Assembly (NCBI GenBank): GCA_038373885.1
Contig: JAWZYV010015837.1
Location: 1-64,000 of the forward strand
DNA: 64,000 nt
DNA from: Cheiracanthium punctorium
Lineage: Eukaryota; Arthropoda; Arachnida; Araneae; Cheiracanthiidae
Direction: 5' to 3'
Below, one piece after another: positions 25,324 to 46,432 of this stretch. Made by a program: the position numbers and the translations under genes. Each line of letters opens with the position of its first letter. Position 1 is the first letter of the stretch. The notes beneath the pieces are model-generated. The model was not told the DNA's origin. It did not search any database and was given only the letters and a program-made list of their open reading frames with translations.

Positions 25324-25607
25324 TTAACCCATTTGTGCCTGGATATTTTTGCGACTTTCTTCGATTTTTACTGATAACAGAAATAATAGATAAATCTCTG
25401 ATGTCAACTTCTTGAACAAGGGATGATTTCTTTTAAAATCATTATGCATAAAAATCGAAATATCAACATCCTACTTGGTCATGTTAAAATATTTTGCAGA
25501 GTTGAGGCTCAATACTCATGAATAAAGCCTAGGAAAAATAAATAACGTTTTCGACTAATAGCGAAAATGCCGTCCCAAAAAAGGGACACTAGGCATAAAT
25601 GGGTTAA
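25324..25607 (-). mobile_element. piggyBac-type MITE, copy 3
   Basis: 284 bp with TTAA at both edges, the same family and length as 7020-7303 but in reverse orientation. The ends are well kept: CCCATTTGTGCCTGG and, from the other strand, CCCATTTATGCCTAG. Confidence 0.85.
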
Positions 25608-25645
25608 GACTTTTTTGTAGCTCTGATTTGACGTATTTTGTTAGT

Positions 25646-27924: not shown

Positions 27925-28153
27925 TTTATTAAAAGCGTATCATAATCCATGCTTCGTCCCAATTTTTCCTTATTCCATTAAGTTGGAAAGTATATCATTA
28001 TTTAAGAGTGTGCCGTTTTCTCTTCCTTGTTCCATAAAGTACCTCTTTGAAATCGAGATCTATATTAAAATCGCCTACTAAAACTGTTTTAAAATCTTTG
28101 CCAAACATATTCTCACTACACTTCACCATAATAAATATTGTTTGGAAGGTAAA
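27925..28153 (-). repeat. ~160-bp minisatellite with an endonuclease-like motif, left of the Polinton
   Basis: The phrase GAGTGTGCC (28,006) recurs on the right of the Polinton at 44,254 and 44,414. With the element removed the spacings are about 159 and 160 bp. On the minus strand this unit reads KTVLVGDFNIDLDF, which matches the GDFN-I-D motif of the exonuclease-endonuclease-phosphatase family. A partial older unit precedes it. The last six bases, GGTAAA, are the Polinton target. Confidence 0.7.
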
Positions 28154-28853: not shown

Positions 28854-31800
28854 TTACAAACACTCATAATGGCCATGAGCGAGTGTATGCACTCCATCCT
28901 CTAAAACATATCGCTTATCATCAAAAGCGCTTAGAGCTACCTTATTCTGACAAATACTGAATAGTTTGTGCTTCTCACTTTGGATTCGATAATTAAGTTC
29001 TTTTGTGCCGTCTAAAGATTGTAAGCATCTATAATATTGCTCATGTGTTAGGCGTTTGCGTATGACATGACGTGCAACCCCCTTTGCAGTCTTTTTTTCA
29101 CAGTCTTCAGTTAAGATGGAGTACATCTTTGCTCTTAACCCCACAAATTCAAGGATAGGTTTCCCATTCAACTCATCCTTGAAACATCCAATCTTCTTTT
29201 TGTTGATGCTGCTATAGAGAGGATGATCTTGCGGGTAATCTGAAGTATCATAGATGTGGGCATATTGCTGCATATCTTGATAAACATCCTCTGTGAAAAT
29301 TTCATAAGTGAGAGAGTCAGTATCCGTGAAGAGCAGATTTGCGTTACCCCCGTATTGCTTTTTTATGACATTATAGTGGAAATCATACATTATTAATTTG
29401 CTGAGTTCTAAGATGCAGAACCCAGCATAGATGGGACGATTTAATTTTAACGTTTTCTTGATGCGTTTCACTGCCACCAGATCTTCGTTAAATATTGTGA
29501 AACTTTGGAACGTTGGACAAGCCACTCGTTTTTCGGCAATTTTTTTGTTGTTCACCAATTCGAGATTTATTCTATTTCTTACGTTCTCCATGGTCTTGCC
29601 GTATACCGAATTGTTCATGAGTTTGAAAAAATCTTTTTCAAACGTTGAAGTGGCGTGCTTTCTTTTTTCAGTATTGAATTCTATATACTTCTTTAACCAT
29701 GGAGACTGGTCAAATTGCAACACTTTATGAATTTTAGTAATTTTTAAGCCTAGTTGAGTATACAGTTGCAAATTTCTATAATGTGTAATGTAATTTCTTT
29801 TATCTTTTAAATTTGGAATTAATTTGGTTGAATTAGTATATGCTATATCTTTTATCATGAATATTGATAACATTGAAAGATCCTTAAGGGTGACAGTTAA
29901 TTTCTCGGGAGCTAGGGGGTAGTCATTATGTGCATCATGCAGTTCTTGGGGGTACTCCAAGTCCACTTCTAGTATGCAGCCTTGCGGTCCGTCTGCAGGC
30001 ATCGATAAAATAGCTTCAATATCAATGTCTTCAGGTGATACCCACTTAAAATTACCATGTGGTAAGCTCTGTACCATACTTGCCCCGTATAAATTATTAC
30101 AATCTAAATATTGTATGTATGAGCTAGGCTTTGAAGGGTCATAACCCTCTAAATACTTATTATTGGCCTGCGCCCAGCGTTTGGTGATGGTGGATATACC
30201 TCCTCGAATGCCCCTCTCGATAAACAAATGCATGTCTATGTCCGTGAATAACTCTAGGGGTCGGTGTAACATTTTAAGGGAAGCTTGCCATGCAAGTCCC
30301 GGAGCGGTCATGAGATGTGCAGCATCCAAGTCGTAATACTGTTTGCACAGCTTCCTAAAGTTTTGGAACACATCTGCCAACTGAAGGACATCACTTTTAA
30401 CATACAAGTCGTGGTACTCTCCCAGATTTTGGATGTTGAAAGCTTGCCAAACAGTTTGTGCATGTGCGTACTCTTCATCAGAAATAGACTCCTGTGTCAA
30501 ACTACTAAAAAATGCTTCTTGAGGAGGTAGGCAGGTCTCATCGAATTTCTCAAAACAGGACATGTACTCATAGGGGTAGACACCTTTTCTTAGCAGCAAA
30601 TCTATATGTTGCGATATATTTTCCTTTAGAAGGGTGAACTTATCCTTGGGTAAATTGGAAACTAGCTTCTCTAAGGAGGTTGACATGAATTGGAAGCTAT
30701 CTATGAATTGCAGGGAGACTTTGATATTTTTATACTTTTTGGACAAGGAGAAGGAAATATATTTTTCTATGTTAGTTGGAATAACATCGATTTGGTGATC
30801 TTTAAATTTTCCTAGTCCTTGCATTATTATATGGCTGTCATAGTTCTTGCTATTATGCATGACCACGGGGATCTTCTTCTGTAAACGGTACTTTAAATTG
30901 CATTTATTATGCAAAGCCCCTCTGTAACGACCGGTAAGATGATCATGATCCCTTACACGATCATTACCTAACGACTTCTTACATAAAAAGCAGTTCACCG
31001 TCTTCTGAAAAGCCTGCTCATCTTGCGGGGACATCTGGATGGGAACGTTTGCTGTTAATTTAGCAGACAGTTCATCTTTTTCCTTAATCAAATTTGATAA
31101 AAAATGATCCACTGCATTGGGTCCTCTATAATATTGAATGGGCTTGTACGATTTACCATCTGGCCCTACAATGATATAAGCATATCCACATGCCATGTGC
31201 TGACTCTGCTTGTGGGTGAAGGACTGCCGAGGGTTCGGTTCTGCCGCGCTGATCGGGATAATTAAAGACTCAAAATCTGCATAAACGATATAGGGAAGAG
31301 GATGTTGATAGTGTTGTTTCTTAAAATATAACAAACTATCTTCTTCTGTGGGCATGTAAATTTTTTGTACTGCATGTTCCTTACAATACGGTATGTGTTC
31401 TTTTAAATTTTTTTCCTCCTTAAATCGATGCATGCATCGATAACAATAATACATGCGGCCATTGTATTGTGTTAAATCAGATAGCAGTCTCGAAAAACTT
31501 CTAATGAGACAATAATGTTGGGTTTCTTCATTGGCAATGAGTAATAAATTAATGCAGTCTTCATCCTCTCGGTTTGAAATAAACAAAGGGAAGACTTCCT
31601 TTTCGTATCCGTATACGTTAATCCGCAAATTGTTCAGTTTTTCAATGAGAGGCATTTTTGATATGGGTACCGGAAACTGTATATTTCCCATCTTGATTTC
31701 CTCTTCGAAGGCTTCATAATGATGCATTCGTTCAGGATAATCTTTTCGATCGATATTCATCATATGAGCAAGTAAACACCATACCAAACACTTTTGATCT

Positions 31801-34633
31801 TCATATTTGATATTAACTATTGCCTTCTTAGCTGCAAGTTGAGGGGGGAGGGGGATGTAACTGCTCGCCGCTAAAGGATGGTAGACTGCACAACAAAGTT
31901 CTAATTTTAAAATTTTGTGCAATACCCAACCGGAACCTCTCTGTGTGAACTCATCAAAAGTATTTTCAATTTTTTCTTGGGCCTCTTTGATATGCCCTTC
32001 GATGGTAAAGGGTGCAAGCTCAATTAGACTTTTGCACCGGAAGTGGCAAGTGATTATATCTTCCTCAACCTCTTGGCTTATGCGCGACATCTGAACTTTT
32101 AATACCGCGTACCACTTGATGGGATTATCTTCTAGTTCCTCTTGCAAATACTGATTTACTTTAGGTGAAGCTTCCTCGAAAAACAATTTTAAATCCGCTT
32201 CATTCTCTTCACTAGGCTCTATCTCGTGGGATGAAAAAACATCCAAAATTTTTTGTTTCTTCGCCCGCTTTGAATTAGAAGTGGATGGACCTGCCTTGCG
32301 TTTTTTATGGCTTACGCGGATATGCTCCTGGAGTTCAGTTTTTAGCGAAAATTGGAGGGGGCACTCGCTACACCTAAATCCTCTAGAGTGTATTTGTAAA
32401 TGCCGATTTAAATGATATTGCCTGGCAAAGGTCTTATTACAGACTTCACAAGTAAAGGGTTTAATGCCAGCATGGATCTTCATATGACGAATTAACGACC
32501 TCTTTTCTGTGAAGGATTTTCCACATTGGTCGCAGATCTATAAAAGATCCAAAAAATGCGACTTTAGAATACGTATTTAAACCCACATACAATAAACCTA
32601 CTAGAAAAATACCCTAACCTATGTATGGATTGTACCCTAGTAAATAAATACAAGTAACCTATTTCGTACCTTAGACTTACCATACTTTTTAACATAAAAT
32701 ACACAATAAAAAAACAATCATACCTTAGAATATATTCAATAAAAACCCAATCCTATCAACACCAAAATTTTTTTAAACCATAAACACATTTTTTAAAAGT
32801 AATCAACTTAGAAAAAACACATTTTTAAATAAACAACGCTAAATTTTTTAAAACCATAAACACATTTTTTAAAAGTAGAAAAAATATATTTTTAATTAAA
32901 TAAAGCTAAGCGTATCAACGCTAAATTTTTTAAAACCATAAACACATTTTTAAAATAAATAAACACACCAAAATTTTTTTTAAACCATAAACACATTTTT
33001 TAAAAGTAGAAAAAATACATCAACCCATTTTCAAATAAATAAACACAGCGTATCAACGCTAAATTTTTTAAAACTATGGTATGCATTTTTAAAATAAATA
33101 AACACAGCATATCAACGCTAAATTTTTTAAAGCATAAACACATTTTTTAAAAGTATAAAAAATATATCAATCCATTTTTAAATAAATAAACACACCAAAA
33201 TTTTTTTAAACCATAAACACATTTTTAAAAAGTAGAAAAAATACATCAATCGATTTTTAAAATAAGCGTATCAACGCTAAAAATTTAAAAGTATTCACAC
33301 CACATGAACCCTAAGTACTTTTTAATATAAACGTACCTTACTAAAAATATATTTGCAGCATGCACACATTTTTATCATTTGAAATAATTACCTAAACTTA
33401 AAAAGTGCAAGTGCACTAAACATACAAATTTTTAAATATCCCTTTACACTAGGTTCATATTAAAACATGAACTGGAAGTGATCCAAACACACATGTCTTT
33501 TACTTAACTCAAAATGTCTGCGTATATAAACATAGTACTAATTAAATATAAAAATACCGATTTCACTTAAACAGCATTACATAATAAAATTTCATTATTT
33601 ATTTACGGATTGAGCATAACGCTAAAAATCTGATGTATAGTAAAAGTGTTCTAAGTACTTTTTAATTTATGTCATTAATACACTCAATCTTACTGAGTAC
33701 TTATTATCAGAACATGAGACACACTTTGATAATCATCCTTCTAATAAAAGTATCAATTTTACTTCGCATCGTTTTTAAATAAATATTGAATAACCTCTTA
33801 TTTTTAAATACACTGATACGATGCTTTTCTTTAAAATATACTTTAAAATAACACTTACGTGACCAGTAGAGGGTCCCGCTTGTAAATCACTAGATGCCTC
33901 TTGAGCATCGGTGGATCCTGGTTGAGAATCCCAATTGATAGATTTATCCAAATCATTCGGGTTCTCTACAATGTCAAGAATTTGATGAAGATCCTCCAGG
34001 GGGATCCCGAATTCATTCAACTGAAAAATATAAAAAATAGAATTAGGTTATTGCAACATAATATTTTATTCATTAAACAAGCTTTTCATTACGCTAATAA
34101 ATACTACTTAATTATCTAAACAAACTTTTCATTACGCTAATAAATACTACTTAATTACCGAAACAAGCTTTTCATTACGCTAATAAATACTACTTAACTA
34201 CCTAAACAAACTTTTCATTACACTAATAAATACTACTTAATTAAATAAACAAGCTTTTCATTACGTTTATAAATACTACTTAATTACCTAAACAAGCTTT
34301 TAATTACGCTAATAAATACTACTTAATTAAATAAACAAACTTTTAATTATGTTATTACCTAAACATATTTTTATTTAACGAATTGCCTAAACACAAGTTT
34401 ACACGGAATAAAACTTATTAATAATAGCGTGCGTGAAATCTAAGCTTTAAACATATTAAATGTACTAGAAACATTCAACCTAACAACATAATCTCACTTT
34501 TAAAAATGAGTCTAAATAATACACCAAAATTTAAAATAGGCTCATTATATTGTTAAATAAAATAAAATAAAAAAAGAAATGTACTTACTTTCTCGTCTGA
34601 AAAATCCAAAGTGTTATTCACTGAAGAAGACAT
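28854..34633 (-). CDS. polB: Polinton DNA polymerase B, three exons, with zinc fingers and an HNH-like motif
   Basis: Exons on the minus strand: 34633-34589 (starts ATG), 34020-33859 and 32537-28854. Both introns are GT...AG and in phase 0, giving about 1,296 aa. It should copy the element from its ends. Order: acidic leader (1-69), C2H2 zinc fingers (about 70-147), basic bipartite nuclear-signal-like stretch (about 146-165), a further Cys/His cluster (about 434-457), exonuclease motif I with Asp-Phe-Glu (about 490), HNH/endonuclease-VII-like insert (CFLCKKS...DHDHLTGRYRG...HNKCN, about 585-617), Exo II (about 631-640), Exo III near YVKSDVLQLADVF, polymerase motif A DCNNLYG (about 881), motif B NNSVYGKTMEN (about 1044) and motif C DTDS (about 1141). 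All key acidic residues are present. The intact DFE exonuclease implies proofreading. It is transcribed divergently from the AlkB-PC4 gene. Splicing is inferred. Confidence 0.93.
32538..33858 (-). other. polB intron 2, AT-rich minisatellite
   Basis: Donor GTAAGT at 33,858-33,853, acceptor TTTTATAG ending at 32,538. From about 32,755 to 33,290 it contains degenerate tandem copies (about 60-120 bp apart) of AAACCATAAACACATTTTTT with AAATAAATAAACACA and GTATCAACGCTAAA. Confidence 0.75.
34021..34588 (-). other. polB intron 1 with ~43-bp tandem repeat
   Basis: Donor GTAAGT at 34,588-34,583, acceptor TTTTTCAG ending at 34,021. Between about 34,075 and 34,360 a ~43-bp unit (CTTTTCATTACGCTAATAAA plus TACTACTTAATTA) is repeated six to seven times. 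Confidence 0.8.
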
Positions 34634-35077
34634 TGTCGAATGCTAATGTGCTAGAAATAAAACACGTCTTGATAGTATGAGAGCTGAACAAAAATTCGTG
34701 CACACTTTTCGGTGAACAGAATAGAAATGATCTCCTTATCTCCTATCCTTATAGTAGTAGAGGGAGATAAGGAACCCTCCCGATGACTCAATAAACATTG
34801 GTCATCTTAGAACTGCCCACCTTTTCTGATAAGCCAATGTGTGAAGATTAGAACCTCCCGATGACTCAATAAACATTGGTCATCTTAGAACTGCCCACCT
34901 TTTCTGATAAGCCAACGATTCCCCCGCTTAATCGCTGATAAGCCAATGATACCCCCAATTACTCATGCACAGCATTGATAACTGGTAGGAACACTATAAG
35001 CCATTTCTAGTTTAAATTTCTATTCGTTCGGACGCAATTTTACTCGCTCTTGCTTTATAGTTTTTTAAAGTTCAAAA
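34634..35077. promoter_or_regulatory. divergent promoter between polB and the AlkB-PC4 gene
   Basis: 444 bp separate the two start codons. A 62-65-bp block is repeated 78 bp apart (34,773-34,838 and 34,852-34,914). Each copy has TGACTCA (AP-1 type; 34,784 and 34,862) and CTGATAAGCCAA (GATA site next to a CCAAT-like box); a third CTGATAAGCCAA follows at 34,941. Each direction has a TATAAG string (minus 34,753-34,747; plus 34,995-35,000). Site names rest on consensus matching only. Confidence 0.65.
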
Positions 35078-36538
35078 ATGACTTCTAATAAAGACAATCA
35101 ACTAAATTTTGATTATACTCCAGAGTTTTATACTCAAAGTGATGCAGATAAAATATTCAACGAGCTATTGGAGCTACCATTTCAAACGCTCACTCTGCAA
35201 ATTTCGGGTAAACAATATACCCCCAATCGCAAGGTGCTGGCTTTCGGTGATGATGGATTAAGCTATGAGTTTTCTGGAGCATCTGTTGAAACTCATCCCT
35301 GGTGCCCCCTTCTACAAAAGCTGCGTGATGATGTGCAAAAAGTGACGAGTCAACAGTTCAACTACGTGCTGCTGAATTATTACCCAGACGGGACTTCAAA
35401 AATTGGACATCATAAGGATAATGAAAGCAGTCTAGACCCTTCCGTGCCGATTTGTGTACTAAGTTTCGGTGCTCAAAGAAGCATCGAATTTAAAAGACCG
35501 AATTGCGATATGGTGTCTATTCAGCTTGCTCACGGTTCCCTCTACCAAATGAAACACCCAACGAATAAACTATTCACGCATGGAATACCCGCTGAACCTG
35601 ACGTTAAAGAATCCAGGATTAGCGTGACTTTTAGAAAATTAGTGCCTTCCACTCGTAAACGTAAATTAAACTCTATTACTACCCCTGCTCAGAAAAAGAG
35701 TAACGTGGAGGACTCTTTTATACCCAGCGGTGACTGGTTGGAGCAACTCTATGAAGAGAGGAACAGTCTTCTCAGCTGGTGGTCACTCGAATGGGGTATG
35801 TTTATATTGTTATACTGTGATAAAGAAAAAGGAATTCGTCTGCATATTCGCGAGTGTAACTACATAAACGAATATGAATGGTTTCCTACCAAAAGAGGGA
35901 TACTTATGCTGCCTCAAACTTGGGCTGAACTGAGTGAAAAACTCTGTGATTTCAATTTGCATTATTCTAATACCTCGTTTATTGCTAACAATCAGTTAGC
36001 TGTATTTAGACATGACGAGGAATATTGCGTGCTCCAACAAATTTTTCGAAATGAGGATGTGTATTCTTTAAAACCATCATGTGTTAAATTGTGTGAAAGC
36101 CAAATATTAAAATTAAATGAGATTTCACCAACAATAACGCAAATTCTTGTGGATATTCTTTTTACTGTGTACTTACCACAACTCTTATGTGTAAATTTGA
36201 CACCCTGTCAGCAAGACATGCATGACAGTGCTTCAGTGAGCAAAGAGAACATTTATAAAGAATGTATACAAGAACTTCGATTTATTGTAAATAAACTCTT
36301 TTCGTGTGAAGGGTGTAAGGTAAACTCACCCGGACAAAACAGACATTGCTGTTTACAGTTGTCCGATGCGGACAAATTTCATCGCGTTGGTAAAAAATGT
36401 TATCTTTACCTGAATATGCATACTATTGCAAAGACATTAAAAGATCAATATTGTAAATGCAACTTCAATAAGGAATTTTTCAACTCGCTGTGTGTAAAGG
36501 ATTATATGCAATTTATTGAAAGTGAGTTCAAATTATAG
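35078..36538 (+). CDS. AlkB-type 2OG-Fe(II) dioxygenase fused to a PC4-like domain
   Basis: 486 aa, the only plus-strand gene of the element. Residues about 10-190 match the ALKBH2/3-type fold: NYYPDG (100-105), iron ligands His112-x-Asp114 (HHKDNE) and His168 (FTHGIP), and Arg180/Arg186 (RISVTFR) for 2-oxoglutarate. All catalytic residues are kept, so oxidative removal of alkyl groups from nucleic acid is likely. After a basic linker (190-210), residues about 240-290 (KGIRLHIREC...WFPTKRGILMLPQTW) resemble PC4/Sub1 coactivator, a single-stranded-DNA-binding fold. The remainder is unrecognised apart from a Cys-rich patch (CEGC...HCC, 410-425). A repair or replication role on the element's own DNA is inference. 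The start is the first Met after the promoter. A poly(A) signal follows 8 nt after the stop. Confidence 0.9.
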   Translation: MTSNKDNQLNFDYTPEFYTQSDADKIFNELLELPFQTLTLQISGKQYTPNRKVLAFGDDGLSYEFSGASVETHPWCPLLQKLRDDVQKVTSQQFNYVLLNYYPDGTSKIGHHKDNESSLDPSVPICVLSFGAQRSIEFKRPNCDMVSIQLAHGSLYQMKHPTNKLFTHGIPAEPDVKESRISVTFRKLVPSTRKRKLNSITTPAQKKSNVEDSFIPSGDWLEQLYEERNSLLSWWSLEWGMFILLYCDKEKGIRLHIRECNYINEYEWFPTKRGILMLPQTWAELSEKLCDFNLHYSNTSFIANNQLAVFRHDEEYCVLQQIFRNEDVYSLKPSCVKLCESQILKLNEISPTITQILVDILFTVYLPQLLCVNLTPCQQDMHDSASVSKENIYKECIQELRFIVNKLFSCEGCKVNSPGQNRHCCLQLSDADKFHRVGKKCYLYLNMHTIAKTLKDQYCKCNFNKEFFNSLCVKDYMQFIESEFKL

Positions 36539-36639: not shown

Positions 36640-37130
36640 TCTAAAAATAATGTTTAATAAGAAAAATATTTTAATTTATCAAGAAAAAAAATTAATCCAG
36701 TTTAAATATTTTCAAATGTTTTTATTTTTAAGTACTTAATTTTAAAGTGCATTTATTTTTAAAAGTGTTTTTAATTTATATCAAGAAAAAAAAAATTAAT
36801 ACAGTTTAAATATTTTAAAATGTTTTTATTTTTAAGTACTTAATTTTAAAGTGCATTTATTTTTAAAAGTGTTTTTAATTTATATCAAGAAAAAAAATTA
36901 ATCCAGTTTAAATATTTTAAAATGTTTTTATTTTTAAGTACTTAATTTTAAAGTGCATGTATTTTTAATCTATATCAAGAAAAAAAAATTAATCCAGTTT
37001 AAATATTTTCAAATGTTTTTATTTTTAAGTACTTAATTTTAAAGTGCATTTATTTTTAAAAGTGTTTTTAATTTATATCAAGGAAAAAAAATAATCCAAT
37101 GTTTTAAATTTATCAAGAAACAATGTTTGA
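36640..37130. repeat. ~100-bp tandem repeat between convergent genes
   Basis: About four copies of a unit with AATCCAGTTTAAATATTTT, TTTTTAAGTACTTAATTTTA and TTTATATCAAGAAAAAAA, spaced about 103, 103 and 92 bp. It lies between the 3' ends of the AlkB-PC4 gene and the minus-strand cluster, marking the boundary of the two transcription directions. Confidence 0.75.
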
Positions 37131-37857
37131 ATCCAGTGTTTTTAATTTATCAAGAAAAATAATTTTTTTTTTTAATCAGGAGCTGACTTAAACTAAAATA
37201 ATTTTAAAATATTTTTAATTTATCAAGAAAAATTTTTAAACTATTTTTTATTTTTTTTATTTTGAAACGTTTACTTATTTCTTTAATTGTAAAATAATTT
37301 CTAAAAGTGATTCATTTTTAACATATTCAGAATTATAAAGGGGATACCTTAAAACGTATAAGGTTTTATTCATGCATGTTGTATTTAAATGAGTGTCTTA
37401 GAACAAATAAGGTTTTATTCAAGAAATAATTTTTCTTGTGGGGGGTAAATATTATATCCCTCTTAATTTGAATATCTCTTTGCATTTAAAAAAATTACAA
37501 AGTAGCAATATCTTGCATCGCAGGAGATTGTGCTGTTTGATAATATTATCTATTACAGATCATTTCCTGTTTTAGCAAGTAAGATACACAAAGTTAGTTT
37601 ATCTCTCAATGCAAATCATTTCCTGTTTTACCAAGTAAGATACACAAAGTTAGTTTTTCTCTCAAGTAGATAAATATATTTTAATTTGTTCTACACTTAG
37701 TACATTTCCTGTGAAACAGGAGAAGTAAACTAGGATACATTATATCAATAGTTGGATTATCAGAGGATGTAGACACATGGGTTATTTACAGTTGATTACT
37801 ATTTCTGTGCTTTACGTGGGGAAAAAACGATAAACAATTTAGAAAGAATCAAATATT
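37131..37857. other. Polinton central non-coding spacer
   Basis: AT-rich. Two direct copies of a ~63-bp unit (CATTTCCTGTTTTA, AAGTAAGATACACAAAGTTA) lie at 37,559-37,675, with a third partial CATTTCCTGTGAAAC at 37,704. No frame of note. An origin-like or transcription-boundary role is possible but untested. Confidence 0.5.
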
Positions 37858-38547
37858 TTATTCAAAATCCCACTTTACACTTTCTGAAGACTTCCGCTTG
37901 GAAGGTTTCACATTTTCTAGTGTACGTGATTTTACAGGTGGATTGCGTTTTACAGGAGGCTCCGTTTTAATAAAAGCATGCTGATTTTTTATAAAATGTC
38001 TAGGAATATTCAGGTCTTCCATTGCTTTTAAAAATATGTCTCTGCCACTAATGTCCGTTTTCCTTCGTGTGGTGAAAATCATATTGAACAGGTCAGCCAC
38101 ATTGGATGAGGGAATGTTTTCATTTTTATACATGAGTTGTCCATTTTGATCCCAGTGTAGTACACTCGGATTTCTTTTTAACAATTCCAATAGAGTTGCT
38201 GCCTGTCTTTTCATTGAACCAGGTACAGAATTTAAAATAATGTCGTCATAGGGCTTTTTCTCTTGCTGTATAATTTCTTCTTGCGGTTGCGATGAAGCAG
38301 CTGGTTGTACACGCCATGATGAATCCGCTTCTACATTAAGTTGTACAGGTAATGATGAATTATAGTTTTCCATGTTTAGTTTTTTTCTTAAAAGGGCATA
38401 ATATAGTTTCACTTTGTCGTGCTCACTTTGACGACTATTCAATATTTTCATCATTTCTTTATCAAATTCACTCATTTGCTGTTCCGTTGGTACATGTCTG
38501 TTCAAAACCTCTTCTGGGACGAGAGCATACTTCTTTGCAAACTCCAT
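37858..38547 (-). CDS. Polinton conserved hypothetical protein
   Basis: 229 aa. I recognise the overall type as a conserved Polinton protein of unknown role: an N-terminal stretch with KYALVPEEVLNRH and an acidic/basic helical region (about 1-55), a low-complexity middle, a folded-looking segment (about 95-185; SVPGSMKRQAATLLELLKRN and IFLKAMEDLNIPRHFI), and a basic Lys/Pro tail. No enzyme motif, signal peptide or membrane segment is visible. It is the last gene of the minus-strand cluster, 6 nt after the 107-aa frame, and its stop TAA lies inside an AATAAA poly(A) signal (37,857-37,862). A structural or DNA-binding virion role is a guess from position and charge. Confidence 0.8.
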   Translation of the reverse strand: MEFAKKYALVPEEVLNRHVPTEQQMSEFDKEMMKILNSRQSEHDKVKLYYALLRKKLNMENYNSSLPVQLNVEADSSWRVQPAASSQPQEEIIQQEKKPYDDIILNSVPGSMKRQAATLLELLKRNPSVLHWDQNGQLMYKNENIPSSNVADLFNMIFTTRRKTDISGRDIFLKAMEDLNIPRHFIKNQHAFIKTEPPVKRNPPVKSRTLENVKPSKRKSSESVKWDFE

Positions 38548-38553
38548 TCAGAA

Positions 38554-38877
38554 TCATGAACGGGGTATGAGACTTGTAAGTACCGACAGGGCAGCAGGTA
38601 ATAAAATATTTAAAAATCCCCCTTTTTGAACAATTAGCTTACGTTTAACATATAATGGGGATTTAGTAGCAAGCTTTCGTAGAGTATTCTTGTGTTTTTT
38701 TAAAGAGGTCTTTTGCTTAGGGGAAAGCGGAATGTTTCCTTTTAATAAATTAAGACTACAGTTGCAGATTAATCGGATACAAGAGTTTGGGAGCTTTTTT
38801 AAAAGACTTTTTCGTAATTTGATAGGACAAATTTGTAAAAGTTGCAGGCGATTAAGATCCTTTTTGCATGGTGTCAT
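38554..38877 (-). CDS. small basic Polinton protein with hydrophobic C-terminus
   Basis: 107 aa, very Lys/Leu-rich. Residues 45-80 (LLKGNIPLSPKQKTSLKKHK and following) are strongly basic. The end, QKGGFLNILLPAALSVLTSL, is hydrophobic and probably amphipathic or membrane-active. The layout (basic helix-rich body, then K-G-G-F-L plus hydrophobic tail) recurs in small Polinton/adintovirus proteins as I know them; the function is not established. A TATAAATAG box (38,918-38,910) lies about 33 nt upstream of the start, overlapping the ATPase stop codon. Likely co-transcribed with the downstream 229-aa gene. Confidence 0.75.
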   Translation of the reverse strand: MTPCKKDLNRLQLLQICPIKLRKSLLKKLPNSCIRLICNCSLNLLKGNIPLSPKQKTSLKKHKNTLRKLATKSPLYVKRKLIVQKGGFLNILLPAALSVLTSLIPRS

Positions 38878-38909: not shown

Positions 38910-38918
38910 CTATTTATA
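38910..38918 (-). promoter_or_regulatory. TATA box upstream of the 107-aa gene
   Basis: TATAAATAG read on the minus strand. Its internal TAA is the stop codon of the ATPase gene. The same 9-mer occurs before the penton-like gene in the same relation to the integrase stop. Confidence 0.65.
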
Positions 38919-39564
38919 CATTTTTCAACTGATACACATATTGTATCTGATTGGGTAAAATGTTGGTGCGCAAACGCATTTTTTCATCAGTTTGAGAGTA
39001 TAAATCAATAAACAAGTATGAATAGGGTTTTTTAGTCGCGTCTTCGTAGACTTCTTGAAAAAATTTTAAATGTCTAGGGAACAATTGCCTTCCCAAATGT
39101 GTTATCTGAGACATATCTCTACGATTCTTAAAAAGTACAAGGTAATGTGCGTTCAAGGTTATCTCCCTCATTTGGGAACCTTGGTGAAAAAAGTTTTGTG
39201 TTATAAAAATAACACTTATATTTAAATGATGCGAACCTCTCGTAAAAAGTTGACATATGTTTTTACTGTTTCCGCATTCATGCATTAGATCATCTATTAT
39301 AAATAATGTATTATTTCCTATGTATTCTCGATAATCAGATGGAAGCCCTTCTACAAAAGTTACACCCTCTATCTCATCGAACAAGCTTTGATATATTCCA
39401 TAGAACCATACTATTTTATCCGGTACTTGTGAAAACATTTCCCGTTTGAAACTGAGTAATTGTTTCGTCCAAAAACTTTTACCACTTTGCGTGGCACCGC
39501 TGATAACCAAATTACACGGTGTTTGCAAGGCTGGAAAATCCATTGTGAATGAAGACAGACACAT
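38914..39564 (-). CDS. FtsK/HerA-type genome-packaging ATPase
   Basis: 216 aa, the usual size for a Polinton ATPase. Walker A is GATQSGKS (23-30), Walker B LFIIDD (87-92), a TQN sensor-like motif is at 122-124, and arginines at 148-149 could serve as finger residues. The family powers translocation of DNA into capsids (A32/FtsK-HerA group). It follows the protease gene with a 26-nt gap containing a TATTTAAA box and precedes the 107-aa gene. An in-frame Met at residue 8 is an alternative start and would remove a non-conserved leader. No break is seen. Confidence 0.93.
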   Translation of the reverse strand: MCLSSFTMDFPALQTPCNLVISGATQSGKSFWTKQLLSFKREMFSQVPDKIVWFYGIYQSLFDEIEGVTFVEGLPSDYREYIGNNTLFIIDDLMHECGNSKNICQLFTRGSHHLNISVIFITQNFFHQGSQMREITLNAHYLVLFKNRRDMSQITHLGRQLFPRHLKFFQEVYEDATKKPYSYLFIDLYSQTDEKMRLRTNILPNQIQYVYQLKNV

Positions 39565-39589: not shown

Positions 39590-39595
39590 TTTATT
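39590..39595 (-). terminator. poly(A) signal overlapping the protease stop
   Basis: AATAAA on the minus strand includes the TAA stop of the protease gene. It would end a transcript covering penton-like, pVI-like, capsid and protease genes. Confidence 0.55.
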
Positions 39596-40079
39596 GATAA
39601 AAGTTCACATAAACATGAAATCGTTTGGCGACAAAATTATACACTAGTTTGTCATTACATATACTTTTTGGTACAAAAGTAGACACAATTTGATTTAATG
39701 TATGACCTTTGGATTTACAATAAAGATAATATGTACAGTATTGCCCACAAACAGCTGTAACATCACTTTGTAACTTGAGTCGGTTAAAGTTTATATTGGG
39801 ATATCTCGATGCAAAGTCTAGAATAGGTCCTTTAAAGGTTTCCGGTGCATTTCCGTAAGAATCAAAGAACTCAATCTGGATAGGCGAATGTAAATAAAAA
39901 GCAAGCCAGTGACTTCCTTGTTGAGTAGATCGATCAACATTCACCACGAGAGAGGCAGGGTACTTTGAAATTTTTTCGGGTAACTCGTCACTCGCATACA
40001 CATCCAAAAAGTGCTTTTTTGTAAAGGGATCCGTAGAAAGTACTTGTCGCAGCTGAAATGTATTCATTCTTCTTCTCAA
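39591..40079 (-). CDS. adenain-like cysteine protease
   Basis: 162 aa, compact C5/Ulp1-type protease. Candidate catalytic residues are His57 (GSHWLAFY), Asp73 or Glu70 (IEFFDSYGN), Gln104 (KLQSD) and Cys111 (VCGQYCTYY), in the order expected of adenain. It probably processes capsid precursors; a candidate site is seen in the pVI-like protein. Its start overlaps the last 4 nt of the major capsid gene. The neighbouring leader Met-Arg-Arg-Arg-Met gives a second possible start at residue 5. All catalytic positions look intact. Confidence 0.92.
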   Translation of the reverse strand: MRRRMNTFQLRQVLSTDPFTKKHFLDVYASDELPEKISKYPASLVVNVDRSTQQGSHWLAFYLHSPIQIEFFDSYGNAPETFKGPILDFASRYPNINFNRLKLQSDVTAVCGQYCTYYLYCKSKGHTLNQIVSTFVPKSICNDKLVYNFVAKRFHVYVNFYQ

Positions 40080-41383
40080 TTGGGGTAGTCACATAAGACG
40101 TGACGCGATTTTGAAATTTCAATCACGTTTTCAAATTCAGCATAAATAAATACGGAGATGGTCTTGTTCAAGGCTTTGGCAAATTTAATTTCTAATCGTA
40201 GATTACCTTGGTGTTGCAAGCTTAAATGAGGCCCATCACAGAGATCCGCGGTCAAGTCGAAAGCATAGAGGGTGTGGCCTTGTGCAAATTCTTCTCGGGT
40301 TAAAAATATACCCTTATCTTGATTAAAACTCGAAAATAGACGATGATAAGCACGTATGTAACTGTCGTTTTCAAAATTTAACTCTAGTGCTTTGCTGGGC
40401 AAGGGGTTCCCGTCTACAAATATGCTTAAATAGGTAACGTCACAGTCATCAAACAAAAACGGATTTAGGTTATATTGTCCGCTCACTGCAGCATTATCCA
40501 GACATCCCACAATCACACGTTTGGGCATGACTCCCAGAAACACATTGTCTTGTAAAAAGGACCAACTGCCTGCAGAGACAGAATACAACTTGCACATAAC
40601 TCGATCAATGGGATATTTAGCTGAAGTTTTCTCCAGAGCTTTTGCATGTCCGAGTGAAACACCGGGACTCACTTTCACTTTTCTAATAAACAATGATGCA
40701 TGCTCTAATATCACGTCATATTCATTAGCTGTAGCAGACATCAAACAAAAATTGGGCTTGCTGCGCGTCATTTTTATCTTTACATCCACCATGTTCAGTA
40801 AAAGTCTATTTTGCTGGAAAATATCGCAGTGCAATTGGCCAATCATATCTAAAGTTTTACTCTTAGAAGTTAGGTGATAGCGTTTCTTGAGTCCTTCGTT
40901 TGCATCGGTCGTAGCCGTGGGATCGGCTGTTGCCAGATTCGTATCCTTGTAAAAACAGGAACAGGAAAGTAAGCTTTTCTTGGCATCTTCCCCATAATTC
41001 ATTAAAGTTTCGATGTAGGCTCTGTACGGGTAAGTATTGCTCGATGTCGAAATCACTCGCTCATTCAAACTAACGTCTACTTGCGAAAAGAGGGCATGTA
41101 AAAATAAATTAACAGGGGCCACGGCATCCTTTTCGTCCAGGTCGGCACCACCCGACTTTACAATTTTTACTTTCACGTAGATGTGAGACGAAGAGAGGTC
41201 TAAATATTCTTCTCCGCTTCCAGATATGTTAAATTCTACAGGTCCTCCATTTTGTATGTTGGCAATAGGGTGATATTCAACAAACTGTCCTTTTTCGATA
41301 GCCGTTTGAGTAGGGGGCATCACAAATAAGTCCAACTCGGATTTAGCGCAGGCTACCGAGTCCTTGTGAATTAAACCGTACAT
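40076..41383 (-). CDS. Polinton major capsid protein (double jelly roll, hexon-like)
   Basis: 435 aa. The opening (DSVACAKSELDLFVMPPTQT, FVEYHPIANI) and the beta-rich body are typical of Polinton/adintovirus hexon-like proteins, often annotated in animal genomes as F54H12.2-like. The two jelly-roll domains probably span about 40-220 and 230-425, though strand boundaries cannot be fixed by eye. It would form trimeric capsomers of an icosahedral shell. It starts 3 nt after the end of the pVI-like gene and overlaps the protease start. No stop or frameshift. Confidence 0.9.
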   Translation of the reverse strand: MYGLIHKDSVACAKSELDLFVMPPTQTAIEKGQFVEYHPIANIQNGGPVEFNISGSGEEYLDLSSSHIYVKVKIVKSGGADLDEKDAVAPVNLFLHALFSQVDVSLNERVISTSSNTYPYRAYIETLMNYGEDAKKSLLSCSCFYKDTNLATADPTATTDANEGLKKRYHLTSKSKTLDMIGQLHCDIFQQNRLLLNMVDVKIKMTRSKPNFCLMSATANEYDVILEHASLFIRKVKVSPGVSLGHAKALEKTSAKYPIDRVMCKLYSVSAGSWSFLQDNVFLGVMPKRVIVGCLDNAAVSGQYNLNPFLFDDCDVTYLSIFVDGNPLPSKALELNFENDSYIRAYHRLFSSFNQDKGIFLTREEFAQGHTLYAFDLTADLCDGPHLSLQHQGNLRLEIKFAKALNKTISVFIYAEFENVIEISKSRHVLCDYPN

Positions 41384-41385
41384 GA

Positions 41386-41808
41386 TTAAGCAAAAATATC
41401 GTGACCTTTCACCTTCTTGGTTCGTCTACGACTGACGTTTTTCACACGTCGCTTCCTCTTTTTATTGCGTCCAGATCCAATCATCGATTTCACTTTAGCT
41501 GCTGCTTTGTCGGTGAGCTGCTTCCCTGCTTCTTTCATGCGTCGTCTTGCGGCTGTTTTAAGGTCCTCGCCCTTAGATACGTCATTCAAGATATCCACTC
41601 CGCTGTTAAATAAATGTCTACCAATAGTCTTTGCACCGCTCTTGAGCATCGGTACTGCTGCTCTAAAAAATGATCTAAAAAGACCGCCAAATCCGTATCC
41701 TTTTTGAAATGGTGCTCCTTGATAAAAATTAAGTCCATTGCCAGACTGATGCGTATAATAATCCTCAAAGGATTTTTGGCAACACTGATAAGGCACATAC
41801 ATTTTCAA
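41386..41808 (-). CDS. adenovirus pVI/core-like minor virion protein
   Basis: 140 aa. The front has FYQGAPFQKGYGFGGLF followed by an amphipathic helix region (about 44-75), and the end is strongly basic (about 106-136, Lys/Arg clusters). The pattern matches the pVI/pX-like proteins of Polintons, thought to link capsid and genome and to disturb membranes. Residues 109-113, MIGSG, fit the adenain cleavage consensus (M/I/L)-x-G-x-G and lie just before the basic tail. It starts within the last 4 nt of the penton-like gene, so translation of the two is coupled or the mRNAs are alternative. Confidence 0.8.
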   Translation of the reverse strand: MKMYVPYQCCQKSFEDYYTHQSGNGLNFYQGAPFQKGYGFGGLFRSFFRAAVPMLKSGAKTIGRHLFNSGVDILNDVSKGEDLKTAARRRMKEAGKQLTDKAAAKVKSMIGSGRNKKRKRRVKNVSRRRTKKVKGHDIFA

Positions 41809-42548
41809 GAGAGGTATTTTTGCCTAAAATGAAGTTTAACGTACGAGCGTCCGCGTTCAAATGGCACTAATTCACCAGTGTGGGTCCTTATAACGATTTC
41901 GATCGTCTGAAATTTTTTTCTCGAGAGCGGTATATAGTGGGGGCGATCAAACTGGGCACTGATTACTTCACCGTCCTTCCCAGTCACATTCACAATACGC
42001 AATAGCGGTGCTAATACATCGCCTACGATCTGCGATTCTATTATATCCGAATACACCATCAATGTCCTGTAATGAGCACACGGGTCTGCAACATATGGGC
42101 TTTCCGAAGTCGTTTCAGTGTTTTCTTCAAAACATTCAATTTCGCAAGGATCAAAACCCAACAGTTGAGATAAGCCAGGGTACAAAAAAACTCTAGCCTT
42201 GTTTTTCACTGAAATGCGCACGCGCTTTGTTACGTTGTTATATTCAAAAAATATTTTATTTTCAATATCTTTAATGCGAATGGCGTTTAAAATTTCGTAA
42301 ACAGAGTCATAAAATCCGGGGGGTACGCGTCTACCTATTATTTTTCCGTCGCCTAAATCAAATCCAATCAAATTATTTTGAGCATTCACATTATACCAGG
42401 TATGCGGATACATAAATTCCGCTAAACCTACCTCCCATTCGCCGTTTAATTCAATGGGGGTTGGTAAACGCGTGATAAAATGAGAAATTTTATTCTCGGG
42501 AAAGTAGTTCATAGAGCTATCGCTCGGTAGTGTTAGATAGAAATTCAT
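41805..42548 (-). CDS. penton-like minor capsid protein (single jelly roll)
   Basis: 247 aa. The front half (LPSDSSMNYFPENKISHF, GEWEVGLAEFMYPHTWYNV) is characteristic of the Polinton penton/minor capsid family, expected to occupy the vertices as a single jelly roll. The C-terminal half contains YSDIIESQIVGDVLAPLLRI, also typical. It lies 37 nt after the integrase gene, with a TATAAATAG box overlapping the integrase stop. It begins the virion-protein block penton-pVI-capsid-protease. No defects are seen. Confidence 0.88.
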   Translation of the reverse strand: MNFYLTLPSDSSMNYFPENKISHFITRLPTPIELNGEWEVGLAEFMYPHTWYNVNAQNNLIGFDLGDGKIIGRRVPPGFYDSVYEILNAIRIKDIENKIFFEYNNVTKRVRISVKNKARVFLYPGLSQLLGFDPCEIECFEENTETTSESPYVADPCAHYRTLMVYSDIIESQIVGDVLAPLLRIVNVTGKDGEVISAQFDRPHYIPLSRKKFQTIEIVIRTHTGELVPFERGRSYVKLHFRQKYLS

Positions 42549-42581: not shown

Positions 42582-42590
42582 CTATTTATA
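42582..42590 (-). promoter_or_regulatory. TATA box upstream of the penton-like gene
   Basis: TATAAATAG on the minus strand, about 34 nt before the start codon. Its TAA is the integrase stop codon. It is a likely start of the virion-protein transcript. Confidence 0.7.
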
Positions 42591-43629
42591 GTGCGAATAT
42601 ATTTTCGGAAGGTATCCATAAATTAAATTTTTGGGGGTAACCTCTGAATTTCACAAAGTATTCTACACGTCCTCGACGCGTTCGCTTTTTTAACACTTTT
42701 TCTATATCAAAGTTTTCCTTGGGGTGTACTTTTTGAAGTTCTTGAGCATAAAACGTTCCCAGAATAGGTTCGCCCATCAAGTCCTTGATCCGGTACACTG
42801 GGGGGTCTCTTGCCACACATTCCGTCACGGTAAACAGTTCTTCCGACCAGTTGGTTTCGTAACCTTTCTCAAAGGTCAATTTATGTTTGGATACGCGTAC
42901 TGTATCCCCCATTTTAAAAACGCAGGGCTTTTTTGGGATGTTTTCCATATCACCGTATAGGGTAAACCACACATCCTGCTCATTAGACTCTGTCACTTCT
43001 GCAGGCGCTCGTTTAATACTCGAGTGAAAGGTGTGATTGTAGCTGTGCACCAATTGGTCCAAAACGTCTATATAGCGGTAAGTTCGTTTACTCGTGAAAT
43101 ATTTCCACATTTTTGTTTTCAAAGTACGATTAAACCTCTCTACAACGGACGCCTTTGTATTATTGTACGTCGTGAAAAATCGCACGTTATGTTGCTTTAA
43201 AAAAGATTGGAACTTTGCATTTTTAAATTCGGTACCTTGATCCGTCTGTAAAAGTTTAGGTTTACGCTCCGAAAAGAAGGAACGGAAAGCATTCACAATA
43301 TCCTCTCCCCGCTTCGATTTAAGGGGGGCCACAAAACTATATTTTGATAGGACGTCTGTACATGTCAGGAGGTATCGGTATTGATCGTTGTACTGCCTTA
43401 AATTAGACAGATCCACTAGATCCGCTTGCCACTGATGGTCTTTCGCATAAACAATTACTCGATTTGTCGGGAATTTCCTGCGCGCCGGTCTGTGAAGAGT
43501 GTATGCGTCCACCCCTTGTAACCAATTCCGAATCTGCGGTTTGCTTACTCTTCCTCGAGCAGCACGGTATAAGGCATTTACACCACCAAAACTCGCCTCG
43601 TGAGCTGGGTCGTGATACGCTTTCTTCAT
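42586..43629 (-). CDS. int: retrovirus-type integrase with C-terminal chromodomain
   Basis: 347 aa. The catalytic core has Asp70 (QWQADLVDL), Asp130 (LQTDQGTEF) and Glu164 (SVVERFNRTL), the DDE triad. An SH3-like segment follows (about 235-300), then a chromodomain (about 305-345; FDIEKVLKKRT, VEYFVKFRGY, WIPSENI). It would join the element's ends to target DNA, producing the 6-bp duplication. The N-terminal zinc (HHCC) part is short or absent, as is usual in Polintons. It is the outermost gene next to the right repeat. No in-frame stop. An upstream coding exon cannot be excluded. Confidence 0.95.
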   Translation of the reverse strand: MKKAYHDPAHEASFGGVNALYRAARGRVSKPQIRNWLQGVDAYTLHRPARRKFPTNRVIVYAKDHQWQADLVDLSNLRQYNDQYRYLLTCTDVLSKYSFVAPLKSKRGEDIVNAFRSFFSERKPKLLQTDQGTEFKNAKFQSFLKQHNVRFFTTYNNTKASVVERFNRTLKTKMWKYFTSKRTYRYIDVLDQLVHSYNHTFHSSIKRAPAEVTESNEQDVWFTLYGDMENIPKKPCVFKMGDTVRVSKHKLTFEKGYETNWSEELFTVTECVARDPPVYRIKDLMGEPILGTFYAQELQKVHPKENFDIEKVLKKRTRRGRVEYFVKFRGYPQKFNLWIPSENIFAL

Positions 43630-43884: not shown

Positions 43885-43958
43885 GGATTCTCGGCCTAAT
43901 GGTTTAAGCCAACAATCATTAGCCTATGAATTCTTTTGTAGGTTGCGCGTTCAAATCT
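43885..43958 (+). other. tRNA-like A/B-box sequence beside the right inverted repeat
   Basis: GGCCTAATGGTTTAAGCC resembles a D-arm/A box, and GCGCGTTCAAATCTG a B box, spaced about 45 nt. I could not build a proper acceptor stem or T-stem, so a functional tRNA is unlikely. It may be a SINE head or Pol III-type element. It touches the inner edge of the right repeat. Confidence 0.35.
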
Positions 43959-44236
43959 GAAATTTTTTTCCAAGTCCCCTTATTTGAAAAATATGTCACA
44001 ATCTGAAAAAAATTACAAGTACCCTTATTTGAAAAATATGTCACAATCTGAAAAAATTACAAGTCCCCTTATTTGAAAAAAAGGAAAAAATATTCTTATC
44101 AATCCTTCGAACATCCGCTCCCCACATCCGGTCCGACCACGCCCCCCTTCCCCGCTCAGCCTAGGGAAAGCACTTGTACGGCGTACCACGAATTAACATG
44201 GTACCGCATGGGCAGAACTCTTGATTATCTACTACT
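43956..44236 (-). repeat. Polinton right terminal inverted repeat
   Basis: Counterpart of 28,154-28,420. Its inner part contains two and a half copies of a ~45-bp unit (AAGTCCCCTTATTTGAAAAA plus TATGTCACAATCTG) at 43,972-44,085, where the left repeat has about one and a half. The two repeats differ by several substitutions and indels. Confidence 0.9.
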
Positions 44237-44540
44237 GGTAAATTATAATCCACGAGTGTGCCATCTTTGCCTTTCTTGTTCCGCAAAACGCTTCTTCAGA
44301 ACTGAAATCTATATTGAAATAACCTACCAAAACTATTTAAGAATCTTCGTCAGGCACATTCTAACTATACTTCACCCTTATAAATAAAGTATGGAAAGTG
44401 TATCATAATCCATGAGTGTGCCCCATTTTTCTTCTTTGTTCAATAAAACACTTCTTTGGAATTGAAATCTATAAATATTGACCCCGAAAACTGTTTTACA
44501 ATCTTTGCTAAGCACATTCTAACTATACCTTATTTTTTGG
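44237..44540 (-). repeat. ~160-bp minisatellite with endonuclease-like motif, right of the Polinton
   Basis: Two units (GAGTGTGCC at 44,254 and 44,414) continue the array interrupted by the Polinton. Their minus-strand reading gives the same motif with changes (VLVGYFNIDF; TVFGVNIYRF) and frame breaks, so these are decayed. The array then runs out in AT-rich DNA. Confidence 0.7.
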
Positions 44541-46145: not shown

Positions 46146-46152
46146 TAAGGTT

Positions 46153-46432
46153 TTAACCCATTTATGTTTAGTGCCCCTTTTTTGGGACGGCATTTTTGCT
46201 ATCAGTTGGACACGTTATTTATTTTTCCTACCCTTTATTCGCGAGTATTGAACCTCAACTCCACAAAATATTTTAACATGACCAAGTAGAATGTTGACAT
46301 TTCAGTTTTCATACATAATGATTTGAAAAGAAATCTCCCCTTGTTCAAGAAGTTGACATCAGAAATTTACCTATTATTGCTGGTATTGGCAAAAATCGAA
46401 GTCGCAAAAATATCTGGGCACGAATAAGCTAA
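46153..46432 (+). mobile_element. piggyBac-type MITE, copy 4
   Basis: Same family as 7020-7303. TTAA and CCCATTTATG on the left, a decayed right end (CGAATAAGCTAA in place of CAAATGGGTTAA). It begins 4 bp after the target duplication of the preceding MITE. Confidence 0.75.

Follow-up and report, generated by a model that had tools for sequence, protein, structure and literature searches.

The 64,000-nucleotide window analysed here (positions 1 to 64,000, forward strand, of contig JAWZYV010015837.1 in assembly GCA_038373885.1 of the spider Cheiracanthium punctorium) contains a complete Polinton of 16,083 bp, and this mobile element encloses a gene in which an AlkB-type dioxygenase is fused to two PC4-like units. 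We propose, tentatively and with slightly less than even confidence, that the product is a two-function Polinton nucleic-acid protein, in which a PC4-like pseudo-dimer would hold a single strand and the AlkB domain would remove base methyl adducts. A preliminary description of this DNA is partly supported by our analysis, being largely right on the anatomy and location of the gene and incomplete on its function.

The gene is a single uninterrupted frame of 486 codons plus a stop (35078-36538, plus strand), as that description had it; the open run here spans 489 codons, whereas 100 first-order Markov resamplings of the 16,083-bp element yielded none longer than 184 (median of the longest runs 118). 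In the N-terminal half, residues 13-186 match the Pfam family PF13532 (E 2.2e-23; 83.9 bits, cut-off 31.2), and a phmmer search of the PDB retrieves ALKBH2 (E 1.2e-37) and ALKBH3 (5e-16). Alignment with human ALKBH2 pairs the residues previously named as iron and 2-oxoglutarate (2OG) ligands, His112, Asp114, His168, Arg180 and Arg186, with H171, D173, H236, R248 and R254. The HxD...H and R...R ligands are also present in the genomic copies of families A and B (see below) that were checked (L001, L024, L009 and L011). The domain thus has fold, Fe(II)/2OG ligands and pocket in common with ALKBH2 and ALKBH3; it differs from them in that the Phe finger and RKK loop are missing and the long loop is deleted, in being joined to PC4-like units, and in being encoded by a mobile element. 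The duplex-binding finger (F102) and RKK loop of ALKBH2 are kept in none of ten aligned sequences and the long loop is shortened in all ten. Because these elements are gone we do not file the domain as ALKBH2 proper, and their loss makes single-stranded DNA (ssDNA) or RNA the likelier substrate of the AlkB half.

Profile comparison and structure prediction both support a PC4-like segment in the C-terminal half, although the preliminary description saw only the first of two units. A profile built from eight C-terminal parts, those of the window protein and seven database relatives, picks out human PC4 in the PDB with E values of 8.6e-6 to 1.2e-5; in hhalign this region matches PC4 with a probability of 97, equalled by none of 100 column shuffles. 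Five of the eight sequences match the Pfam PC4 model (PF02229) at E≤10, the best at 0.0013. When the PC4 comparison was slid along the whole protein in 29 steps, residues 333-354 also matched PC4, more weakly and in the same register, with a probability that reached 57; the best position in the AlkB half reached 8. This second match covers 20-22 residues at the last strand and helix of PC4, was equalled in 0 of 100 shuffles, and scores 22.2 against a maximum of 13.8 among 60 shuffles. The AlphaFold model (ten-sequence alignment; mean predicted local distance difference test score, pLDDT, 81.5; predicted template modelling score, pTM, 0.52) has four strands and a helix at residues 229-290 and again at 300-371, downstream of a disordered linker at 192-228. 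The structure prediction that had been suggested as a check therefore returns a PC4-like strand-helix order in the second half. PC4 chains are not among the best 50 matches listed in either fold list, and these lists are filled by the AlkB half. PC4 is a homodimer, and two PC4-like halves in one chain may form the intramolecular counterpart of that dimer. The likeness to PC4/Sub1 lies in the strand-helix order and in the sequence of unit 1, and the differences are the two units per chain, the sub-cut-off Pfam score and the helical tail.

That tail had been described as an unassigned Cys-rich segment. Its cysteines belong to a C-X2-C-X9-H-X-C (CCHC) motif within a helical region, but the tail is preceded by the second PC4-like unit, which had gone unnoticed. 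The motif is invariant across the window protein and six database fusions, and in the alignment family C (see below) has Arg in place of its second Cys. Profiles of residues 298-410 and 402-486 matched nothing convincing in PDB or Pfam. A saposin match (E 0.056) in these searches was judged to be due to chance.

The claim that this is a Polinton accessory gene is borne out both by the element and by its relatives. The element is bounded by terminal inverted repeats (TIRs) with a 6-bp target site duplication (TSD), GGTAAA, on each side; its AGT-type ends (AGTAGTAG...CTACTACT) together with the 6-bp TSD are those of a Polinton. The core genes are also present, with integrase and ATPase recognized by Pfam, and the protease and both capsid proteins placed by order (Table 1). 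The fusion gene is the only assigned gene on the plus strand, all other assigned Polinton genes being on the minus strand. Vertebrate Polintons/Mavericks, as presented in the portion of PMC8097293 consulted, are alike in their (AGT)n ends, 6-bp TSD, core genes and accessory regions, and differ in that 'PC4', 'dioxygenase' and 'alkylat' occur nowhere in the text of that paper.

A search of the 2.53-Gb genome for further copies, in which the best 88 of 3535 candidates were scored, gave at least 92 matches. Family A, to which the window copy belongs, comprises 43 full-length matches at ≥93% identity, 38 without stops and five with; family B has three (48-49% identity, none with stops); and family C has ten on nine contigs (38-41% identity, nine without stops). 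The remaining 36 are partial or decayed copies (68-99%). Core genes lie downstream of the fusion in all 12 sampled A copies and all three B copies, and in all three B copies the PolB frame is upstream and divergent, as in the window. Two Polinton families thus share the position and strand of the fusion gene. Identity between A and B is approximately 85% for the integrase, 81-83% for the major capsid protein (MCP), 78% for the 140-aa frame, 68-70% for the ATPase, 67.5% for the protease, 62% and 47% for the last two thirds and first third of PolB, 51-54% for the minor capsid protein, 47% for the fusion and 42% for the 229-aa frame. For the fusion of family C the identity is 37%. By these alignments the fusion gene is held in place while diverging fast, and is not alone in that.

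The ratio of nonsynonymous to synonymous substitution rates (dN/dS) is 0.14-0.26 in eight family A pairs with the window copy (drawn from 14 open A copies) and 0.10 and 0.15 in two B pairs, and the gene in both families appears to be kept under selection against amino-acid change. In seven of the eight A pairs the AlkB half gives 0.10-0.27, the eighth having no nonsynonymous change, and the C-terminal half 0.18-0.84, where the two highest ratios depend on 1.5 and 2.5 silent changes; the most diverged A pair (L001-L024) gives 0.10 for AlkB and 0.20 for the C-terminal half. Silent sites are at or near saturation in the A-B, A-C and B-C comparisons.

Family C separates the two halves of the protein. 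All five ligands are replaced (H112G, D114N or Y, H168Y, R180H and R186V) in all ten open frames from eight copies, and in two older relatives, L012 (with one stop) and the L047 copy, H168 is the only ligand kept. Because family C kept an open frame after losing every catalytic ligand, one lineage can do without catalysis, and a second role on the PC4 side of the protein is probable. C-terminal dN/dS is 0.08-0.23 for C copies compared with L013. Among the young C copies, residue-changing codons account for 15 of the 22 variable codons of the AlkB half, as against 16 of 39 on the C-terminal side, a difference that is not significant (Fisher p 0.06). The AlkB-half contrast between one chosen pair of each family (L001-L024 in A and L013-L020 in C) has p 0.008. 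In deeper comparisons the AlkB half gives dN/dS of 0.50 (L012, open part) and 0.31 (L013-L047), with 0.21 and 0.25 for the respective C-terminal parts. The AlkB half is constrained in these comparisons too, so the dead domain is loosened but not free, and a pseudo-enzyme scaffold is the simplest reading.

The family C elements are also structurally distinct. The left ends of six of eight C loci start AGTAG with flanks that differ between copies, and five copies were read at both ends. Four of these (C8446, C6846 at 181511-194821, C9756 and C2166) are 13,311-13,967 bp long, terminate in CTACT and are flanked by matching 6-bp TSDs (TATAAA, TATAAT, AACTAC and ATGGTA), and so have Polinton-type ends with the 6-bp duplication. 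Each is a near-perfect palindrome of two arms, 97.5-99.9% identical across 5.8-6.1 kb, with one gene per arm directed to the centre. In the first-fetched arm all eight copies have an open frame; among five second-arm pieces L033 and L034 have the full 493-codon frame, L030 has 478 codons, L031 is split into two frames and L032 did not pass the frame filter. Similarity to the TIRs of the window element past the terminal motif was not convincing (short matches, best E 7e-4). We also considered family C as a normal Polinton and rejected this, since tblastn with ten other window proteins (PolB through integrase, and a 90-aa frame) left AlkB as the only match in all 15 C pieces, a search that too-diverged proteins would escape. 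These pieces are nine loci with approximately 3 kb upstream and 2 kb downstream, a span that holds Polinton genes in A and B, and six further pieces, and they cover the four TSD-bearing copies entirely. A second lineage on contig C6745, with a 74% identical protein and an open frame, is likewise palindromic (99.7% across 4,303 bp). The same contig bears a family B Polinton, whose integrase frame is about 550 bp away from the end of this palindrome (L047 63-4365 with L052 3977-8279).

Palindromic defective genomes are known in adenoviruses, which likewise replicate by protein priming. It is possible, though we regard it with considerable doubt, that family C is a persistent lineage of palindromic, single-gene, non-autonomous Polintons that would replicate through a hairpin, one arm templating the other, the dead AlkB-PC4 protein being kept as a single-strand- or end-binding replication factor that exploits helper Polintons, with its AlkB fold a pseudo-enzyme. 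If one arm templates the other then the arms of a copy should be closer to each other than the copy is to its nearest other copy. In one 3-kb core the arms of the five copies are 98.8, 99.97, 99.2, 99.6 and 99.8% identical, the nearest other copies 98.3, 99.4, 98.3, 99.3 and 98.5%, and all 28 copy pairs 94.6-99.4%; the arms are closer in five of five, by margins that are small but one-sided. A somewhat unlikely alternative is that the palindromes arose in the assembly, or that they are defective copies carried along passively, with a gene that was under constraint only in an unseen autonomous parent. One of the five copies, C8728 (G000:C8728:1272481-1281585; 9,105 bp), is unlike the other four in that its mirror extends into the flanks, as a fold-back read would give, and is likely an assembly fold-back; the AlkB half of young C copies also looks relaxed (15 amino-acid-changing and seven silent variable codons). 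However, distinct flanks with matching 6-bp TSDs led us to reject an artefact for four of the five copies, PolB or another Polinton gene was found by tblastn at none of the nine C loci (~3 kb up, 2 kb down), and the second lineage is palindromic with an open frame as well.

The same fusion had been suggested as something to look for in related elements, and it is present in database proteins as well as in the genome families. Of 11 database matches, six (P0002, P0003, P0004, P0005, P0006 and P0008) are fusions over their full length and one, P0007 of the spider Stegodyphus mimosarum, is a partial fusion; P0009 from Uloborus and P0010 from Oedothorax are shorter proteins, also of spiders, and P0011 and P0012 are AlkB proteins of different make-up. 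The database fusions are 33-40% identical to the window protein; P0008 has HxE and no counterpart of R248, and the ligands of P0010 are partly changed. Besides a Pfam AlkB match, P0012 (766 aa, 57 database members) has a Cys-rich N-terminal part that looks like PHD and a tail that looks like GDSL, and is perhaps another repeated AlkB gene. Residues 190-486 alone, searched against 5.8 billion proteins, gave none of 474 candidates at E≤0.001. No stand-alone C-terminal half was found with the C-terminal alignment, in a word-based search that missed P0002 and P0003; its three matches, P0013 and the query members P0004 and P0006, all include AlkB. Four protein queries and one alignment gave no confirmed relative in IMG/VR. 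Among the matches listed in the open-licence literature there is no earlier description of an AlkB-PC4 fusion as a Polinton gene, nor any account of a Polinton or adintovirus AlkB or of a Polinton PC4; the titles and abstract openings of these matches include no publication on palindromic Polintons, and the part of PMC10598087 consulted has no Polinton AlkB gene.

Table 1. Features of the Polinton and its AlkB-PC4 fusion gene (positions in the window)
Feature	Position	Strand	Basis
TSD GGTAAA, left	28148..28153		same letters as 44237-44242
Left TIR, starts AGTAGTAGATAA	28154..28421	+	inverted repeat pairs and alignment
PolB-type frame, three N-terminal C2H2 zinc fingers, ATG at 32483	28854..32537	-	Pfam zf-C2H2, Endonuclease_7
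AlkB-PC4 fusion gene, 486 aa	35078..36538	+	open reading frame
AlkB (ALKBH2-like) domain, residues 6-191	35093..35650	+	ligands H112 D114 H168 R180 R186
Basic disordered linker, residues 192-228	35651..35761	+	pLDDT <50
PC4-like unit 1, residues 229-290, four strands and a helix	35762..35947	+	profile matches and predicted structure
PC4-like unit 2, residues 300-371, four strands and a helix	35975..36190	+	predicted structure; weak PC4 match 333-354
Helical tail, residues 385-483, C-X2-C-X9-H-X-C (C410, C413, H423, C425)	36230..36526	+	alignment and predicted structure
229-aa frame	37858..38547	-	kept in family B (42%)
107-aa frame	38554..38877	-	kept in family B
Packaging ATPase	38914..39564	-	Pfam Pox_A32 E 5e-5, above cut-off
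Adenain-like cysteine protease	39591..40079	-	Pfam Peptidase_C5 E 0.005 (below cut-off) and gene order
Major capsid protein	40076..41383	-	Pfam DJR-like E 0.014 (below cut-off) and gene order
140-aa basic frame	41386..41808	-	open reading frame
Minor capsid protein, putative	41805..42548	-	size and gene order; no Pfam match
rve integrase with chromodomain	42586..43629	-	Pfam rve E 1e-12, Chromo E 2e-8, above cut-off
Right TIR, ends CTACTACT	43954..44236	-	inverted repeat pairs and alignment
TSD GGTAAA, right	44237..44242		same letters as left TSD

Two of the labels in Table 1 are assumptions of ours. The 1209-aa frame we take to be PolB from its size, position and familiar motifs, no Pfam polymerase family matching it at E≤0.1, and the minor capsid protein is presumed from size and gene order. 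The three C2H2 zinc fingers of the PolB-type frame (32300-32537, minus strand; PF00096 E 2e-12) look to be part of that gene because the family B alignment also begins at residue 1. Just 5' of the fusion gene (34780-34915) there are two copies of a ~60-bp repeat with TGACTCA, possibly promoter elements, and on its 3' side A+T-rich tandem repeats of ~100 bp (36660-37180) separate it from the convergent genes. Outside the Polinton on both sides lies a 255-nt inverted repeat (25359-25613 and 46147-46401, 87% complementary), perhaps the two copies of another repeat.

In the mechanism that we favour, the C-terminal half would fold as an internally paired PC4-like pseudo-dimer holding single-stranded nucleic acid, most likely the strand displaced in protein-primed replication. 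The N-terminal AlkB half, of ALKBH2-type descent, would clear 1-methyladenine (1meA) and 3-methylcytosine (3meC) from the held strand, adducts that could stem from host cytosine methyltransferases acting on the element, and the PC4-like units would coat the displaced strand while AlkB scans it. We infer the pairing of the units, the substrate, the binding of ssDNA and the time of action. Protein-primed replication sets free a long single strand, and it is in single strands that 1meA and 3meC arise most readily and that ALKBH3-type enzymes act. Host DNA methyltransferases (DNMTs) can make 3meC, ALKB2 repairs it, and transposable elements are moderately methylated in the chelicerates tested, according to the part of PMC7343188 consulted. 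The earlier idea of repair on replication intermediates, or of counter-defence, is compatible with the loss of the duplex-binding elements, but since the frame of family C stays open without a catalytic ligand, alkylation repair or counter-defence cannot account for all of the function. For the same reason the PC4-side function becomes the part that cannot be lost and AlkB chemistry a losable module. By implication the protein can serve in coating, end-binding or transcription with no catalysis at all.

Several observations weigh against this proposal. The single window sequence scores E 0.06 and 13.3 bits with PF02229, under the cut-off of 25, and because of this we name the C-terminal half PC4-like and not a PC4 family member. 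A direct repeat was rejected because the two PC4-like units have no profile similarity to each other, and for this reason unit 2 rests on predicted structure and the 20-22-residue match. What we take to be the ssDNA-contacting aromatic residues of PC4 are not obviously retained. In family A the enzyme half is more constrained than the C-terminal half. Repair is not universally needed, given the HxE and missing R248 of P0008 and the absence of any ligand in family C, and the substrate could equally be RNA. Finally, the excerpt of PMC7343188 records five or more losses of ALKB2 among arthropods, of which a single one goes with loss of DNMT1 and 3, and because ALKB2 has been lost in arthropods that keep DNMTs the link to DNMTs is loose.

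The main rival, which we consider unlikely, is that the AlkB domain acts as an RNA eraser or in counter-defence, stripping N1-methyladenosine (m1A), N6-methyladenosine (m6A) or other marks from element or host RNA, with the PC4-like units holding RNA or ssDNA. The missing duplex-binding elements fit ssDNA and RNA alike and do not discriminate. Precedents include an orchid Ty3/Gypsy element with an acquired AlkB-type demethylase that acts on RNA (PMC9289625, in part), although this is a plant retrotransposon whose protein is similar to m6A RNA demethylases, and the part consulted makes no mention of PC4. AlkB domains are also carried by plant RNA viruses (PMC544882, in part) and, more widely, by giant viruses, with genome protection proposed in the plant viruses (portions of PMC544882 and PMC10598087, and structure matches); these differ in that no PC4 label occurs among the best 50 structure matches listed, a list that follows the AlkB half only. 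The fusion also diverges much faster between A and B than MCP or integrase (47% versus 81-85%), as host-facing genes often do, but the 229-aa frame (42%), the minor capsid protein (51-54%) and the N-terminal third of PolB (47%) are equally or nearly as fast, and the nearest enzyme, ALKBH2, is a DNA repair enzyme.

We judge it quite unlikely that the protein is a transcription regulator, its PC4-like units serving to coactivate late genes of the element and its AlkB fold used mainly as a scaffold that binds nucleic acid or protein. In favour of this, PC4 itself coactivates transcription, the fusion gene runs in the opposite direction to all other assigned genes of the element, and family C retains an AlkB-shaped domain without ligands at an AlkB-half dN/dS of 0.31 in L013-L047. 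However, all five ligands are kept in the A and B copies checked (L001, L024, L009 and L011), and the AlkB-half dN/dS in family A (0.10-0.27 in seven of eight pairs, the eighth being free of nonsynonymous changes) points to catalysis being in use there. That the gene is a captured host gene, functionless in the element and merely not yet decayed, is most improbable: accessory genes come and go, and five of the 43 full-length copies at ≥93% have stops, but dN/dS is well under 1 in A and B, two Polinton families have the gene in the same place and strand, and the fusion is present at 33-40% identity among database proteins.

We know of no single-strand-binding protein assigned to Polintons, and the AlkB-PC4 gene is a concrete candidate for one, with a predicted partner activity. 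The fusion may also tie a mobile element to the story of DNMTs and ALKB2 in arthropods, as an element with its own eraser of damage that host methyltransferases can cause. The dead-enzyme lineage of family C provides a natural experiment that separates the two functions, and its palindromic elements may show how protein-primed animal elements make and maintain defective genomes.
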